DNA from: Flavobacteriales bacterium
Lineage (GTDB): Bacteria; Bacteroidota; Bacteroidia; Flavobacteriales_D; Parvicellaceae
Direction: 5' to 3'
NCBI GenBank assembly: GCA_025210295.1
Contig: JAOASC010000043.1
Span: 1 to 64,000, forward strand
Length of the DNA stretch: 64,000 nucleotides
Each line of letters opens with the position of its first letter. The first letter of the stretch is position 1. Both the position numbers and the translations under genes were made by a program. Of the stretch, positions 24,281 through 31,965 are shown one piece after another. Under the pieces are notes generated by a model. That model was not told the origin of the DNA and ran no database searches. It saw nothing but the letters and a program-made list of their open reading frames with translations.

Positions 24281-25120
24281 TTATTTTATTCTGCTTTCAA
24301 GTGTAGCTAATCTTTCTTTAGCTTTAGTAATTACAGCAGTCTTGTTGGCGATTTCCTCAGCAGAAAGCGAACCGTCTGCTTTGGCTGCCGCTAACTTAGT
24401 TTCAGCATTGGCTATTTTTGTAGTTAACGTTGCTGCTTTAGCTTTTAAAGCTGCATTTTTAGCCGCTTTAGCTGCTTCTTTTTCCGCTTTTAACGTTTCT
24501 ATTTCCGCTTTTTTAGCAGCTAACTTTTCTTTGTCAGCTTTAATGGCGTCTAATTCAGCTTTATGCTCTTCCTTAAAAGCAGCTTTACGTTCAGCTCTTT
24601 TAGCTTCCATTTCAGCTTTACGTTCCGCTTTTATTTTTTCCATTTCGGCTTTGTAAGCGGCCTCATCTTCACCATATTTTTCTTTTAACTCAGCTTTCTT
24701 AGCATCCATTTCTGCTTTTCTAGCATGAATTTCAGCTTTTTTTGCTTCAATTTCTTCAGCTGTCATTCCTTTCATAGCCCCTCTCTTCTCGATCATTTCA
24801 TCTCTATGAGCTTGCTGTTCAGCTTTCATTTTTTCTTTAAAAGCAGCTTTTTCTTCCTCAGTCATGTTCTCCATCTCTGCTTTCATTTCCTCACGTTTCC
24901 CTTGCATTTCTGCTTTGTGAGCTTCTCTCTCTGCTTTTAGTTCTTCTCTTTGTTCTTTGGATAATTTCCCAGACTCTTCTCTAAGCTCTTCTTTTTGCTT
25001 TTTAATTCCCTCTTTAAGCTCTTTCTTGTCTTGGTGAGCTTGTTTTAATTTTCCGCCAACCTGAGCAACACTAGTTCCTGCGATAGTTAACGAAAATATT
25101 GCGATATATACTTTTTTCAT
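24281..25120 (-). CDS. Secreted Lys/Glu/Ala-rich coiled-coil protein
   Basis: 279 residues. MKKVYIAIFSLTIAGTSVAQ is a Sec signal peptide. The mature protein is almost entirely predicted helix of very low complexity, with irregular repeats built on KAEMxAKRAERKAA and KxELK, and few hydrophobics apart from spaced Met, Leu and Ile. There is no enzyme motif. It lies 12 nt after an acidic lipoprotein gene. The AT-rich complementary strand also stays open over 417 nt, but that frame has no features of a real protein. A periplasmic structural or surface coil is the most I can say. Confidence 0.75.
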   Translation of the reverse strand: MKKVYIAIFSLTIAGTSVAQVGGKLKQAHQDKKELKEGIKKQKEELREESGKLSKEQREELKAEREAHKAEMQGKREEMKAEMENMTEEEKAAFKEKMKAEQQAHRDEMIEKRGAMKGMTAEEIEAKKAEIHARKAEMDAKKAELKEKYGEDEAAYKAEMEKIKAERKAEMEAKRAERKAAFKEEHKAELDAIKADKEKLAAKKAEIETLKAEKEAAKAAKNAALKAKAATLTTKIANAETKLAAAKADGSLSAEEIANKTAVITKAKERLATLESRIK

Positions 25121-25132
25121 TGTTCTAATTTC

Positions 25133-25375
25133 TTAAATGTTATCTAACTCACTTTCTAATTCATCTAACTCGATTTCAACTTCGTTTAACTCTTCTATCT
25201 CCAAGTTCAACTCGTCAATCGCTTCTTCCATCTTTAAGGTCTCGTCATATAAGTTAGCAGCATCAACAGTTTCTTCTGTTGCATGAGTTTTATCTTCACT
25301 TTTTTCTTCAGCTCCACCACAAGACGTGAATGCTGTAAATGCTACAACTGTAGCTGCAATCATTGCTTTTTTCAT
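25133..25375 (-). CDS. Small acidic coiled-coil lipoprotein
   Basis: 80 residues. The signal MKKAMIAATVVAFTAFTSCG gives a lipoprotein with Cys19. The mature chain is strongly acidic and ends in a heptad-like run (MEEAIDELNLEIEELNEVE) rich in Leu, Ile and Glu, a good coiled coil. It is the first gene of a two-gene unit with the basic coil protein. A one-mismatch -7 element (TATATTCG, minus strand, 25400-25407) lies 25 nt upstream. Function unknown. Confidence 0.72.
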   Translation of the reverse strand: MKKAMIAATVVAFTAFTSCGGAEEKSEDKTHATEETVDAANLYDETLKMEEAIDELNLEIEELNEVEIELDELESELDNI

Positions 25376-25589: not shown

Positions 25590-28526
25590 TTATTGTTGGT
25601 TATTGACTAATTGAACAACACCATTAAACAAAGCTTCTTTGTCATTATTGTCAATAATTTGAACATTCCATAAGTAAATATCATTAGGATAACTTTTTCT
25701 TGAGTTGGGTTGAATTCCATTCCATGGCTTGTTCATGGATGTTGTAGTATAAAGTAGTTTCCCTTTTTTATTGGTAATGGTCATTTTATAAGATTTGATG
25801 TTAGCTTTAGTATTGACTATGAAGTTATCATTTATACCATCACCATCAGGTGTAAATATGTTTGGAGCAGAGATGTTGAGGTTTTCTGTTTTGTTCTGTT
25901 CATTTTCAAAGCATGGAAAAGCAATACTTCTGAGCGTGTCTGTAAATCTTTTTTGCTCAAGTTCTTTTCGGTTTCTTCTCTCAATTTCTAAATTTAATTC
26001 GTTTTGTTGCGCTTGGTATTTTTTGAATAATTCTTCACGTTTATGTTTTTCTTCAAGTAACCGTTTACGATTGTTAAGTTGTTTATTCTTCTGTTTAATG
26101 GTTCGTTTCAATTGATCTTCAAAGTAGTTGAGTGCGTATAGCCCTTCAGAACCAACTAAAGATAGCTCGTCTTTTATCTTTGTAAGTGGAGTTTCTTTTT
26201 CTTCAATATGAATAGTTGTATCAGTATATGGATTATAATGTGTTATACCCCAATACAATTTTTTGTTTCGTTTAGTAAGGCTAAAAGTATAGGTATTGCT
26301 CATTTTTTTAGCTTCAACAGTGCTTCTTTTAGGGAATTTAGCCTGTGCTATATTGTTGCTGTTTAGTAATGGTGTTATGGTTTTTATCGTGTTCAAGTAC
26401 TGAAATATTCTACTAAAACCATCATGTTGGTTGGTTTCAATTTGAACTGTTTCAGAGCCATTAGCTAGAAGATGCGTATACTTGTCTATATTTTTCCATC
26501 CTAAAGAAGTCCATTGAGCGGCATAAGATGGAGTAGTAACAACCGAACGTTGAGGTGTTTGCTTTATAGGGAAGTTAGAAAGCTTATTAGGTTTTGAGGC
26601 CGTAAGTATAGTTTTTTGATAAGCTTTTCTATTGTTTTCGATTAAGTTTTTTAGCTGTTTAAGTTCCGCTGTTGTTTTTTGGTCCAAAGCCTGCTTCAGC
26701 TGGTTTAACTCGTTAGAATACTGTTTTTTCTTTTTATTGTAAAAATTAGATAGTTGCTGTTGGTAAATGTTATTAGCATCTTTTATGTTAGTTAGTTTTT
26801 GGTTATAGAACTCAAGGAATTGTTTTTTCATGCTTCCGGTTAATGAGTTCGCAACAATAGAGTCTGCGAGGTATAAATTGTTACCTAAGTTATCAATGTA
26901 TATTCCCAATAGACTATCGCCGTTATTGAGTTGGTGCAAATAAAAAATACGTTCTTCCATTTCTTTGGTTGCAATGTATGTATGTTCAAATTCGGAGCTT
27001 TTTATTGTCTTTATAGATAGTGGACGAATTCCACATTTTTTGTAGCTTTTCTTTTTTCCTTTAATTGTTTTGATCTTGCTTTTTCTTTTTCCAAAAGAAG
27101 TTGATTGATTTTCAGGTATAATACCTTCGAAAAGGGTAATGGTTGGAACAGTAATATTTTGATCGGTTATGGCTAATGCTTGTTGGGATGTTTGGTAGCC
27201 AACAAAACTAATTTCTAGTATATAGTTACCTGGCGAAATATTATCAAATGTATAGTTGCCATCAAAATCACTATTGGTTCCATATCGTACAATGTTATCT
27301 TTTCTGAGGGTAATGTTTACGAATGGCATAGGTTTACCACTTTCATCGATTATTGTACCATTGATGCTGGAGGCATTTTTATTTTTAAAATCAATTGTTC
27401 GTTCAGCTCCCCATCTTACCCCTAGACCATTTCTTTTTCTATTGCTAGATTCCTGAGGTATAAATGTTGTGCTTTCAGTGTTTGCTTCAGAAATGTCATC
27501 TAAACTGTAATACAAACTGTCTATAAGTTTTGGGGTAGCTTTGTTGTAGTTTTTAAAAGGTAAGTTTTCCGCTACACCGTTGGCGAATCCTTTGGGTAGG
27601 AAGTCTAAAAGGTTTAAATCTACTTTTGTAAGGTATTTCTTTAAAGGTTTAGGTGTGACCCAATTAATATTACCATTAATATCGATTTCACTGTCAAAAG
27701 CAAGCATACCTTTTTTTATACTTTGAGTTGGAATTTCAGTATAAATTGGAGCATTAGGATTTAGTTTTACTGGAGTTCCATTGTTAGAGGCATTTATATA
27801 AAACATCCCTCCAGTTTCTAATTGCTTTCCATTAGAAGTAGTGGTTAAATTATACAAAATCATATCTTTTAATGTAAGGGCTTCCACTAATTCAAAGTCT
27901 ATTGCTGAAGTAGCCAAATTATTATTACTGTCAACAAAAGCATTAGGAGGAATAATGATTAAGGTGCCTTGTTGTCCTTCGATTGTTTCACCCTTTTGAG
28001 GATCAACAACAAAGTGTTGGATAGTTGGCTCAACAAATGTTTTAACCCCTCCAATTTGGAAGTTATCATGAGTTGGAATATTCTTGCTAATTGTTTTTTT
28101 AGCGCTATAACTTTTTTGAGAGATCGTATCTTTTGATTCAGCTATTTCTGTTTGTTGAACATTTGAACTGTCATTAAAAGTAGCAATAGTTTCCCTAGTT
28201 TCTATGTTGGTCAGTTGTTTAGCATTGTAATGATGTTGGTTCTTCATTAAGAATGTAAAACCCACAGAAACAAAGGTTAAAATGAGGATTCCTAACCCTA
28301 ATTGCGTCCAAATATTCCAAAAGTTAGTGGCTTGGGAAACTGCTAAAACTTCTTTTCTAAATTGCGCTCGTCGAATCGCTTTGAGGAGCATTTGATGTGC
28401 TTCAACTTGTTCAGCCAAAATTGGATTTTGATGAAGTTGGTTTTCAAAAGCATGACGTGAGTCTTGATCTAATTGATGTGTTAAATACAACTCAATTTGT
28501 TCTATATTTTCTAGTTCTTTTCTCAT
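25590..28526 (-). CDS. Giant anti-sigma-factor-like protein with T9SS type B sorting domain
   Basis: 978 residues, directly downstream (12 nt) of an ECF sigma gene. Layout: cytoplasmic helical N-terminus (1-70, ENIEQIELYLTHQLDQDSRH, as in anti-sigma factors, no zinc motif); one membrane helix (about 72-94); a ZU5-like region (about 160-270, with GTLIIIPPNAFVD and LETGGMFYI); a carboxypeptidase-regulatory-like beta domain (about 385-465, GNYTFDNISPGNYILEISF); coiled coils (about 570-650 and 840-880); and a gliding-motility-type C-terminal domain (886-978, NIFTPDGDGINDNF). The N-terminus anchors it in the inner membrane while the C-terminal domain is normally a T9SS export signal, an odd combination. 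Role as anti-sigma factor is inferred from position and topology. Confidence 0.8.
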   Translation of the reverse strand: MRKELENIEQIELYLTHQLDQDSRHAFENQLHQNPILAEQVEAHQMLLKAIRRAQFRKEVLAVSQATNFWNIWTQLGLGILILTFVSVGFTFLMKNQHHYNAKQLTNIETRETIATFNDSSNVQQTEIAESKDTISQKSYSAKKTISKNIPTHDNFQIGGVKTFVEPTIQHFVVDPQKGETIEGQQGTLIIIPPNAFVDSNNNLATSAIDFELVEALTLKDMILYNLTTTSNGKQLETGGMFYINASNNGTPVKLNPNAPIYTEIPTQSIKKGMLAFDSEIDINGNINWVTPKPLKKYLTKVDLNLLDFLPKGFANGVAENLPFKNYNKATPKLIDSLYYSLDDISEANTESTTFIPQESSNRKRNGLGVRWGAERTIDFKNKNASSINGTIIDESGKPMPFVNITLRKDNIVRYGTNSDFDGNYTFDNISPGNYILEISFVGYQTSQQALAITDQNITVPTITLFEGIIPENQSTSFGKRKSKIKTIKGKKKSYKKCGIRPLSIKTIKSSEFEHTYIATKEMEERIFYLHQLNNGDSLLGIYIDNLGNNLYLADSIVANSLTGSMKKQFLEFYNQKLTNIKDANNIYQQQLSNFYNKKKKQYSNELNQLKQALDQKTTAELKQLKNLIENNRKAYQKTILTASKPNKLSNFPIKQTPQRSVVTTPSYAAQWTSLGWKNIDKYTHLLANGSETVQIETNQHDGFSRIFQYLNTIKTITPLLNSNNIAQAKFPKRSTVEAKKMSNTYTFSLTKRNKKLYWGITHYNPYTDTTIHIEEKETPLTKIKDELSLVGSEGLYALNYFEDQLKRTIKQKNKQLNNRKRLLEEKHKREELFKKYQAQQNELNLEIERRNRKELEQKRFTDTLRSIAFPCFENEQNKTENLNISAPNIFTPDGDGINDNFIVNTKANIKSYKMTITNKKGKLLYTTTSMNKPWNGIQPNSRKSYPNDIYLWNVQIIDNNDKEALFNGVVQLVNNQQ

Positions 28527-28538
28527 TTGAAGTCAGAT

Positions 28539-29081
28539 TTAAAGGTGAGTAGTTTTAGCTTGTTTACTTACATTTTCTAAACACTTATATTTTTGTGTTT
28601 TAGCAGAGTTGACACTTGAGTAGTTAAGTCGTTCTGCAATCTGTTTCATTGATAATTTTTCGAAATAGAACAATTGAATAATAGCCTTACATTTTTCTGT
28701 GATTTGGTTTAATAATTTTTCTAAAAGTTGAATTTTTTCTTCTTTTTCTTCATCATAGTTTAAGTCTTCATGGTTTAGTATCAATGTGTCTCGCCATTCC
28801 AATTCCTTTTTTTTGTTTTGCTTACGTAGTTCGTTTTTCCATAAAAAACGATTGATACCATATAAGTAGGTTGTTAATTTTGATGTTAAAACAAAGTCTT
28901 CAGTATCAATTTTTTCCAGTAGGATAATTAGGCTATCATTAAATATTTCTTGGGCTATGTCTGCGTTTCCGCCACTAGAAATAATGAGTTTTTTTATTTT
29001 AGGGAATTCCTTATAAAGTCTTTTTAAGGGGATGTTTCTATTCCCTTTTCTAATTTGTCTTATAATTTCTTGGTCTGTCAT
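28539..29081 (-). CDS. ECF-type RNA polymerase sigma factor
   Basis: 180 residues. Region 2 includes NADIAQEIFNDSLIILLEK and LTTYLYGINRFLWKNELRK; region 4 includes AIIQLFYFEKLSMKQIAERL with a helix-turn-helix ending NSAKTQKYKCLE. This matches ECF sigma factors of Bacteroidota. It overlaps no other gene and is followed after 12 nt by a membrane protein with anti-sigma topology. Two inverted repeats in the upstream region (29120-29148 and 29156-29170) are candidate regulatory sites, possibly autoregulation. Target genes cannot be read from sequence. Confidence 0.9.
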   Translation of the reverse strand: MTDQEIIRQIRKGNRNIPLKRLYKEFPKIKKLIISSGGNADIAQEIFNDSLIILLEKIDTEDFVLTSKLTTYLYGINRFLWKNELRKQNKKKELEWRDTLILNHEDLNYDEEKEEKIQLLEKLLNQITEKCKAIIQLFYFEKLSMKQIAERLNYSSVNSAKTQKYKCLENVSKQAKTTHL

Positions 29082-29119
29082 TCTACCTTTCTTTTCCCTT
29101 TTAATGTTATAAAAAGAAA

Positions 29120-29148
29120 AAGGTAACCTGCTTTTTTTTATTTACCTT
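29120..29148. promoter_or_regulatory. Inverted repeat AAGGTAA/TTACCTT upstream of the sigma gene
   Basis: 7-bp arms at 29120-29126 and 29142-29148 separated by 15 nt, in the divergent region between the sigma gene and trmB. Spacing and position suit an operator or a promoter-region element. Confidence 0.35.
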
Positions 29149-29955: not shown

Positions 29956-31875
29956 TTAATTCTTAATTAGTTTTTGTAGCGTACTTTCTTTAGCGTATCT
30001 TATTTCTAAAAGGTAGATTCCTTTTGCTAGTTGGCTTGTGTTAATCGTTAGCTCGTTGTTGGCATTAGCATCATGAGTAGAGCTCCACAATTGTTTTCCC
30101 TGTACATCTGTTAAGAATATTTCAACAGGTAAATCATTGATTTTATCACTTTCAAAATTGATAGTAAGTTGATCCCTAAATGGGTTAGGATAGGCTAAAC
30201 AGTTTTGATTATTTGTAAAAGTAGTTGTTAAGGTATCGTTGGAATGGTCTCCATCTTCAGTTTCATTGGGGTTATTAGAAATAATGGTGATGCTGTTTTC
30301 TCCTTGTGGAATAACACCAGTACTTGGTAAAGTTATGGATAAGGTGTCGTTGGTAGCTAAGTTTCCACTCCAGTTATAGCTGGATAATATGTTACCGTTT
30401 GTCCCATAATTAAAAGTAATTGTTGAAAGCGCTTCTTCTCCATTGTTTTTGATCAAAATCTTAGGAGTAACAGCGTTACCACAGTTGGTGGTCTCAGGAG
30501 TTAAAATAGCCACCATATAAACGTCGTTATCCGAAGCGTTAGGATCCCACCCATTGAGAGAAGTGGCTCCTGAATTTTGAGGGTCTAACCAGTCTTTTAG
30601 TCTTGTTGTAGAGCTTGTTCCATCCCAAGAAACAGAAAATTTACCGTAATAATCATTGACACTATTAGCGCAATTGGCCTGACCTCCGTGTAATTGGCCA
30701 ACAATTAAGTGGTTTTCATCCCATAATCCAGAACCAGAAGAACCACCTTCAGTAGTTGTATTTCTTTCCCATTGTAAAATACGCCATTCACCATTGGTAA
30801 TAGAGGTTCCAAAAGTTCCAGATACTGGAGCATCTTCATCAAATGCCAACTTTTTTACATCTCCTCTAGGGTGGTGAATACCTACTGTCTGAGTAGGAGT
30901 ATTACCCGAGTTATTCCAGCCAGCATAATAAACGTTATAGTTGTCAGGCGGGATTGTATTTAATTCAACCAATCCAAAATCAGAGCCTGCATTTCTTGCT
31001 TTTAAACTAGAACCGTTAATGGTATGGTTGTCTACAGCATCTTGACTGTTAGCAGTAATTTGACTGCCACATATTGGACTGTTATAATTAAATCTAAAAA
31101 TGGCACTTCCCATACTCTGGGGATTACAATGGTTGGCAGTAAGAAAATAAGGGGTGCCATCCTGAGCAGTATTGTTGACTAAAGAACCAGAACATAAACC
31201 GCCGCCATTTACTATTCTAGCTACCGAACGGATTTCCTTTTCCCAAGGAATCCCATCTGCACAAATAACATCCATGTTGCAACCTCCAGATTCATTGACT
31301 TTTAGTTGTCCATACCAGTTGTTGATATCTTCAAAGCCATGAACAACAGTTCCAATCAATAGTTGAGGAGTCGTTAAAGTGTTCTGAGGTTGATAGTACT
31401 CAATAATCATCTCATCTCCTTTAATAAGTTCAGTACCTAAAATATTGCTGTTGTTATTGTTGTATGAGGTATAGGCTCCAACAAGAGTAGTTTTCTCTGT
31501 GTTGTATACATGTAGGTATGCTCCATCAGGGAGGTAAAAATTAGAGAAGATAATATTGATAGATAAAGCGCCATCGCTCTTCAATTTTAATAAAGCAATT
31601 TGATCGCCATTGGGTAATAGGTTCCAAGTGGCTTCTTCTTTAAAGTCTATGTTTGTTTGGTGTTCATAGCCAAAACGATACATACCAGATTTGTTGATTC
31701 GGTTAGCATGTTCTTCTTCAATTACACGATCAAGATCAAAGGAGGGAAGTTGAAGGGGGGTAGGAGTAATTGATAGCTTGTTTTGAAAAGTGTAGGGTTT
31801 TATTTTGTTGTTGGTTTGACCATTTACAATTAAAAAACCGCAGATAAGAAGTGAAAAAAGTAAAAATAAGCGCAT
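29956..31875 (-). CDS. Secreted trypsin-like (lysyl endopeptidase-type) protease with T9SS sorting domain
   Basis: About 639 residues from the ATG at 31875, which gives a clean signal peptide MRLFLLFSLLICGFLIVNGQ; a longer frame start 51 nt upstream would run through a -7 promoter element. After an N-terminal prodomain the S1 domain shows the triad His249 (LTANHC), Asp299 (GSDFGLVE) and Ser380 (EGGSSGSGLWD). The C-terminal ~75 residues are a T9SS type A sorting domain (AYPNPFRDQLTINFE ... KGIYLLEIR). Cysteines around the S1 domain suggest disulfides. It is probably exported across the outer membrane and attached to the surface or released. Confidence 0.92.
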   Translation of the reverse strand: MRLFLLFSLLICGFLIVNGQTNNKIKPYTFQNKLSITPTPLQLPSFDLDRVIEEEHANRINKSGMYRFGYEHQTNIDFKEEATWNLLPNGDQIALLKLKSDGALSINIIFSNFYLPDGAYLHVYNTEKTTLVGAYTSYNNNNSNILGTELIKGDEMIIEYYQPQNTLTTPQLLIGTVVHGFEDINNWYGQLKVNESGGCNMDVICADGIPWEKEIRSVARIVNGGGLCSGSLVNNTAQDGTPYFLTANHCNPQSMGSAIFRFNYNSPICGSQITANSQDAVDNHTINGSSLKARNAGSDFGLVELNTIPPDNYNVYYAGWNNSGNTPTQTVGIHHPRGDVKKLAFDEDAPVSGTFGTSITNGEWRILQWERNTTTEGGSSGSGLWDENHLIVGQLHGGQANCANSVNDYYGKFSVSWDGTSSTTRLKDWLDPQNSGATSLNGWDPNASDNDVYMVAILTPETTNCGNAVTPKILIKNNGEEALSTITFNYGTNGNILSSYNWSGNLATNDTLSITLPSTGVIPQGENSITIISNNPNETEDGDHSNDTLTTTFTNNQNCLAYPNPFRDQLTINFESDKINDLPVEIFLTDVQGKQLWSSTHDANANNELTINTSQLAKGIYLLEIRYAKESTLQKLIKN

Positions 31876-31901
31876 AATCTTTTTATCGTTTGGTAGATGT
31901 A

Positions 31902-31909
31902 CAAAATTA
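31902..31909 (-). promoter_or_regulatory. Bacteroidota -7 promoter element for the protease gene
   Basis: On the minus strand this reads TAATTTTG, an exact TAnnTTTG match, 26 nt upstream of the chosen ATG at 31875. Confidence 0.55.
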
Positions 31910-31965
31910 CAAATAAAACTACTCAATTTGATAAAAGTTGTCTGGCGATTATCTTATTTGTGTCA

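Follow-up and report, generated by a model that had tools for sequence, protein, structure and literature searches.

The question raised by this locus is why a protein that begins like an anti-sigma factor, with a helix anchoring it in the inner membrane, should end in a sorting domain of the type IX secretion system (T9SS). The window, which is the whole stretch analyzed, comprised 64,000 nucleotides (nt) of contig JAOASC010000043.1 from a Flavobacteriales bacterium of the Parvicellaceae (assembly GCA_025210295.1, positions 1–64,000 of the forward strand). It contained a 180-residue sigma factor gene of the extracytoplasmic function (ECF) type (28539–29081, minus strand) and, on the same strand after a gap of 12 nt, a gene for a 978-residue anti-sigma-like transmembrane protein with a C-terminal T9SS type B domain (25590–28526), as the initial annotation had described. 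Our preferred answer, to which we give an even chance of being correct, is that this protein is a trans-envelope anti-sigma factor whose type B C-terminal domain (CTD) is not exported and docks at the outer membrane or at the T9SS, with the state of docking controlling the release of the sigma factor.

Pairing of the protein with an ECF sigma factor

The sigma factor was identified by Pfam Sigma70_r4_2 (27.7 bits; cut-off 25.7) and NCBIfam TIGR02937 (53.8 bits; cut-off 42.9), and its orthologues in five related genomes shared 57–74% sequence identity. The anti-sigma-like cytoplasmic N-terminal segment of its neighbor (residues 1–68; 28323–28526, minus strand) was composed of three helices in the AlphaFold2 (AF2) model, with predicted local distance difference test (pLDDT) values of 73–91 over residues 1–60. 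These 68 cytoplasm-like helical residues preceded the sole N-terminal membrane segment, a helix of residues 69–94 (28245–28322, minus strand) with a predicted N-in/C-out orientation. The helix had a low pLDDT in the AF2 model, and its hydrophobic stretch was preceded by basic residues. The cytoplasmic N-terminus and single membrane helix recognized in the initial annotation were therefore retained.

Relatives were searched across the order using the core of the protein (N-terminus, helix, and ZU5-like domain) as the query, which matched in 71 of 399 genomes at E < 1e-30; a single-protein scan of the genome contigs gave no relatives. The relatives of the sigma clade were gathered by an alignment of the sigma factors, another alignment being too divergent to serve. 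The initial annotation had set linkage of homologues to sigma genes as a test of the anti-sigma reading. When the fetched loci long enough to judge were counted (n = 68), an ECF gene was located directly upstream on the same strand in 63. The other five loci were L112, L129, L083, L113, and L126. In L112 and L129, lipoprotein-type N-termini replaced the anti-sigma segment, and the sigma gene of L083 was found in L153, another record of the same contig.

The NCBIfam anti-sigma model NF052375 matched 16 of 28 family N-termini at E ≤ 0.1, with a best value of 2.8e-5 and a value of 0.014 for the window protein, and PRK13920 and zf-HC2 each matched 5 of 28; all of these matches were sub-threshold and consistent. 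In addition, the window N-terminus gave a weak profile match to 3hug_B (E 0.55). In a mirror-tree comparison of the sigma factors with the anti-sigma N-termini, the correlation was r = 0.63 for 133 pairs, and 500 permutations gave values of 0.045 or less. As a comparison of trees, this co-divergence shows a stable pairing and not binding. Mutual information between the two proteins gave no interpretable contact pattern. Because the ECF linkage was family-wide, the N-terminal models matched, and the partners co-diverged, the proposal that the window protein is an anti-sigma factor is well supported by sequence comparison.

The same sigma clade also had other kinds of partner. In the Crocinitomicaceae, genes for N-in anti-sigma-like proteins carrying TonB_C alone followed the sigma gene. 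In Pedobacter, Sphingobacterium, and their relatives (L166–L211), N-in membrane proteins of ~365 residues were located downstream, and their C-terminal part resembled a trypsin/HtrA-type protease by eye.

Type B domains among exchangeable C-termini

The C-terminal domain of the window protein (residues 884–973; 25608–25877, minus strand) scored above the cut-off in both T9SS type B models, with 47.5 bits against Pfam CHU_C (residues 886–973; cut-off 27) and 40.2 bits against NCBIfam TIGR04131 (cut-off 35). The type B assignment, also made in the initial annotation, is therefore firm. No FecR domain was matched in the 978-residue protein, and no outer-membrane beta-barrel at its C-terminus, by the Pfam and NCBIfam models.

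The C-termini of the family varied, carrying no module, TonB_C, or the type B CTD. Among 78 members, with combined labels counted under each module, the type B CTD was found in 4, TonB_C, either terminal or internal, in 19, and the haem motif CxxCH in 20; the minimum numbers of changes on the tree were four, 12, and 14, respectively. The window protein was sister to a same-genus orthologue, L029, which ended in TonB_C, with a support of 99 in the Shimodaira–Hasegawa-like approximate likelihood ratio test (SH-aLRT). In a second sister pair (G624/G670), L081 with the type B CTD was grouped with L082 with TonB_C (SH-aLRT 96). Because the sequences of both pairs were collinear as far as a conserved ..FPC.. 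joint and divergent beyond it, TonB_C and the type B CTD, both parts of proteins working at the outer membrane, appear from these alignments to be swapped at one position.

In FecR/TonB-dependent transporter signaling, an inner-membrane anti-sigma factor is read out by an outer-membrane event. The window protein is likewise a putative inner-membrane anti-sigma factor, and its sisters carry TonB_C at the place of its type B CTD. However, it differs from the FecR systems in lacking the FecR match and an adjoining gene for a TonB-dependent transporter.

Several relatives showed further variation of the modules. The gene behind the module-less orthologue L030 (L030:6250–6648) encoded a separate secreted protein that looked TonB_C-like by eye, an arrangement suggestive of a module provided in trans. 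An anti-sigma relative in L120 (L120:1440–4415) had a DsbD_N-like stretch in its middle slot in addition to a C-terminal TonB_C. In about a quarter of the members, the 20 mentioned above, a c-type cytochrome domain with the CxxCH motif was inserted after the ZU5-like domain of ECF-linked anti-sigma paralogues, with many gains or losses on the tree. These members included L045:3323–5647 on contig C33 of the same genome, L034, L037, L080–L082, L097, and L123. The presence of haem on an anti-sigma factor suggests a role in redox or gas sensing.

A second family was found through the window CTD, for which the best match in the genome by E-value was a protein on contig C46 (L280:65–1922). This protein of 433 residues began with a cytoplasmic N-terminus and a helix and continued with two PKD domains and a type B CTD; its anti-sigma-like gene overlapped the end of another ECF gene. 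A third pair on contig C44 encoded a protein of 361 residues with PKD and a type B CTD (47.5 bits), giving three ECF/CTD pairs in total in this genome. Of 299 genomes of the order, 241 encoded a close match to the C46 sigma factor, almost always as a single copy, and the partner of this sigma factor ended in PKD and a type B CTD in 26 of 30 loci examined in the order. The order-wide relatives (L333–L361) had the same layout, an ECF sigma gene followed by a gene for an anti-sigma-like protein of 410–470 residues with PKD and the type B domain. Outside the order, the partners of related sigma factors matched outer-membrane barrel models C-terminally, mostly below the curated cut-off. Because the distant members were barrel-like and the members within the order ended in the type B CTD, the beta-barrel and the PKD and CTD combination appear to replace each other in this family. 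The initial annotation had proposed looking for the architecture across Bacteroidota; the type B CTD was rare in the family of the window protein (4/78), yet it was the rule in this unrelated ECF system of the same order.

The second family (L280, L313, and relatives) is near to the Dma anti-sigma factors, with PKD and the type B CTD where the barrel would be. This likeness is one of layout, leaving aside the ECF21-type partner of Dma. According to PMC13088901, citing Pardue 2024, the Dma proteins also neighbor an ECF gene and have an N-terminal anti-sigma segment, one helix, a long periplasmic reach, and a C-terminal part of outer-membrane type, all of which resembles the window protein. However, the Dma proteins described there have a beta-barrel behind a disordered tether, whereas the window protein combines coiled coils and a type B CTD with a ZU5/GAIN-like domain. 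Although it would be Dma-like in its working, it lacks the barrel of the Dma family.

Comparison with T9SS cargo and proposed mechanism

The CTDs of anti-sigma proteins were compared with those of T9SS cargo in one alignment of 34 anti-sigma CTDs and 49 cargo CTDs. Of the 49 cargo CTDs, 41 had the tryptophan of the RWG motif, which all 34 anti-sigma CTDs lacked, whereas the columns P7, N13, W50, G52, Y64, and G82 were about equally conserved in both sets. When only seven groups were counted (six single proteins and the Dma-like family as one), a complete absence of the tryptophan was still unlikely, at 0.16^7. In the window CTD, the FTPDGDGxND motif was intact, as were the terminal strand and the conserved Trp and Tyr further along. 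Of the 20 cargo proteins in the genome scoring best for a type B CTD, 19 had a Sec signal peptide. The anti-sigma proteins lacked one, and in the 978-residue protein the first hydrophobic segment was residues 69–94. The genome encoded 28 PorP/SprF-like genes, most of which adjoined genes for cargo with type B CTDs; by their coordinates, none of the 28 was beside any of the three anti-sigma genes. SprA was encoded in this genome and in the other genomes with members ending in the CTD.

PorP/SprF barrels are known binding partners of type B CTDs (PMC9143113), and secretion requires each of five CTD motifs (PMC12618676). As those two sources describe them, SprB and other type B cargo, with the SprF/PorP-like shuttle, have the same C-terminal domain as the window protein, and the genome has the corresponding SprA and PorP/SprF genes. 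The window protein differs from such cargo in having an N-in membrane anchor. Because the RWG tryptophan, the Sec signal peptide, and the PorP/SprF neighbors are all missing, its CTD is probably not an ordinary export signal. The RWG tryptophan would thus be a simple sequence mark dividing sensors from cargo, and an annotation of T9SS sorting domain would not always indicate a secreted protein.

In the preferred mechanism, residues 1–68 would sequester the ECF sigma factor in the cytoplasm, a step well supported by sequence comparison, and the single helix would anchor the protein in the inner membrane with the N-terminus inside. About 790 residues, including the ZU5/GAIN-like domain, CarboxypepD_reg, and the helical stalk, would cross the periplasm. 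The type B CTD, not being exported in the normal way, would then dock from the periplasmic side to a T9SS partner in the outer membrane, which would most likely be SprA, the translocon, or a barrel of the PorP/SprF type. The docking would change when the outer membrane is damaged or when secretion cargo competes for it; this change would act on the anti-sigma factor, probably through regulated proteolysis, and free the sigma factor, whose targets would be a small regulon and the operon that encodes it. The sensing of T9SS or outer-membrane state, already suggested by the initial annotation, fits both the exchange of TonB_C with the type B CTD and that of the beta-barrel, and it is kept here as a conditional proposal. 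The type B domain was joined to such anti-sigma factors several times, probably for sensing the state of the outer membrane or of the export machine. A broader generalization is tentative: type B domains may have repeatedly become non-exported sensor tips in two unrelated ECF families, whose sigma factors would read T9SS or outer-membrane load or integrity in many Bacteroidota, with the lost RWG tryptophan marking the class.

Several points weigh against the preferred mechanism. We infer both the sigma binding by residues 1–68 and the docking of the CTD. The CTD was modeled by AF2 with low confidence, as the aligned homologues do not have this domain. The close relatives L030 and L031 had no C-terminal module, and docking is therefore not essential to the family. 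The window CTD was closest to the Dma-like CTDs (42–44% identity compared with 38% for the best cargo CTD), so the anti-sigma CTDs may share ancestry and the tryptophan may not have been lost independently in each. Furthermore, all the cargo CTDs were drawn from this single genome, and loss of the RWG tryptophan would abolish export only by our inference, as its place among the five motifs is not stated in the text of PMC12618676.

The same facts can be read in other ways. The protein could span both membranes, its CTD passing through SprA to sit at the surface on a PorP/SprF-like barrel, with an external ligand or failed export being sensed. The Dma anti-sigma factors, as PMC13088901 describes them, reach from the cytoplasm to an outer-membrane barrel, the remaining strongly conserved CTD positions are all kept, and SprA and the 28 PorP/SprF-like proteins are encoded. 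However, the missing tryptophan (34/34), signal peptide, and PorP/SprF neighbor argue against passage through SprA, a T9SS substrate with a fixed inner-membrane anchor was without precedent in the literature searched, and we regard this arrangement as unlikely. An equally improbable reading is that the CTD is a mere Ig-like module of the FlgD type for a periplasmic or cell-wall partner, with the T9SS uninvolved. The type B CTD is related to FlgD_ig, which was weakly matched in L081, L105, and L327, and both the loss of the cargo-typical tryptophan and the alternative module TonB_C, which is unlinked to the T9SS, would suit such a module. It fits less well with a window domain that exceeds both type B cut-offs and retains the FTPDGDGxND motif, the later Trp/Tyr, and the terminal strand. 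The initial annotation had also offered a surface adhesin controlled by its own sigma factor. Such a protein would be true T9SS cargo, its only tie to the sigma factor being a shared transcript or this control. Although a type B CTD with coiled coils is typical of adhesins, the Sec signal peptide is replaced here by an anti-sigma N-terminus and an inner-membrane helix, and relatives without the CTD are still sigma-linked, which makes this alternative very improbable.

For the sensing of T9SS or outer-membrane state in Bacteroidota, the examples in the literature searched were PorXY-SigP and Dma. In the PorA-PorXY-SigP system of Porphyromonas gingivalis (PMC7712824), the signal from a CTD-bearing protein likewise leads to an ECF sigma factor, one that controls T9SS genes. 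However, that protein is a separate surface protein signaling through a two-component route, whereas the window protein combines the CTD and the anti-sigma segment in one polypeptide. A secretion tag within a sigma-controlling protein makes that protein a candidate for sensing of this kind by direct physical means. No description of an anti-sigma factor with a T9SS sorting domain, or with PKD, was found in the literature searched, which excluded subscription papers; the CTD on an anti-sigma factor is thus an undescribed variant there, the ECF/anti-sigma pairing itself being known. As one ECF/CTD pair is near-universal and single-copy in the order, the question can be addressed in cultured species.

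Periplasmic domains, promoter, and neighboring genes

The periplasmic part, encoded on the minus strand, began with a ZU5/GAIN-like domain of about residues 155–345 (27492–28064), modeled with a pLDDT of 84. When the model of residues 150–350 was compared by VIA-align, the top eight rows were the ZU5 domains of ankyrin and ZO-1, the FIIND of NLRP1, and the GAIN domains of adhesion G-protein-coupled receptors, with Z values of 5.1–6.0, which are modest and below the level of a sure match. For residues 150–350, neither ZU5 nor any other family was matched in Pfam, and no match emerged when PDB sequences were searched by profile. Foldseek gave no match at E < 0.3 for the whole 978-residue model and none at E < 0.2 for the domain alone. 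The ZU5-like region of the initial annotation is thus supported at the level of the fold, with modest confidence, and not by Pfam. Autoproteolysis of the GAIN/FIIND/PIDD type was considered and dropped, as the H(L/F)(S/T) cleavage motif was not visible in residues 155–345.

The carboxypeptidase-regulatory-like domain, also recognized initially, was matched by Pfam CarboxypepD_reg at residues 387–465 (27132–27368) with an E of 9e-16 and was missing from L029 in the alignment. It was followed by a conserved helical domain and long helices (residues 497–642; 26601–27038), for which the AF2 pLDDT was 81–95 over residues about 500–600 and 56–72 over the helices that come next. A conserved beta domain (residues 664–780; 26187–26537; pLDDT about 80) preceded a coiled-coil stalk of AF2 helices (residues 781–879; 25890–26186), which ended at the ..FPC.. 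joint.

A conserved ECF-type promoter, GGTTACCTTT-N11-ACATTA (29102–29128, minus strand), was located 20 nt 5' of the sigma start codon, and its GGTTAC core was present 5' of 16 of 21 family sigma genes. The window gave one match, compared with 0.01 expected. When GGTTACCTTT-N11-ACATNA was searched with at most one mismatch, the pattern was found 5' of the sigma gene in all five searched genomes having the pair, and zero sites were found in three same-genus genomes where the pair was not found. This conserved promoter supports autoregulation, in which the sigma factor would drive its own operon. A promoter motif of ECF type has been described in F. psychrophilum, where it covers T9SS genes together with one ECF/anti-sigma pair (PMC9723704).

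Elsewhere in this genome, the pattern occurred once, at C40:81002, a count near the chance level of a reversed control. Downstream of the site (L366:1501–3023) is a gene for an exported protein with leucine-rich repeats and a ZU5-like stretch, and genes for giant proteins with type B CTDs adjoin it. It is an uncertain lead as a regulon member, because the control pattern yields similar numbers. An extra promoter site in the genome G005 had nothing related nearby.

Downstream of the anti-sigma gene, positions 24281–25375 (minus strand) encoded an acidic lipoprotein of 80 residues and a secreted protein of 279 residues, the latter a K/E/A-rich helix almost throughout; neither matched Pfam. At 29956–31926 (minus strand), a protein of 656 residues carried a T9SS type A sorting domain (TIGR04183), and its true start is likely inside the listed open reading frame.

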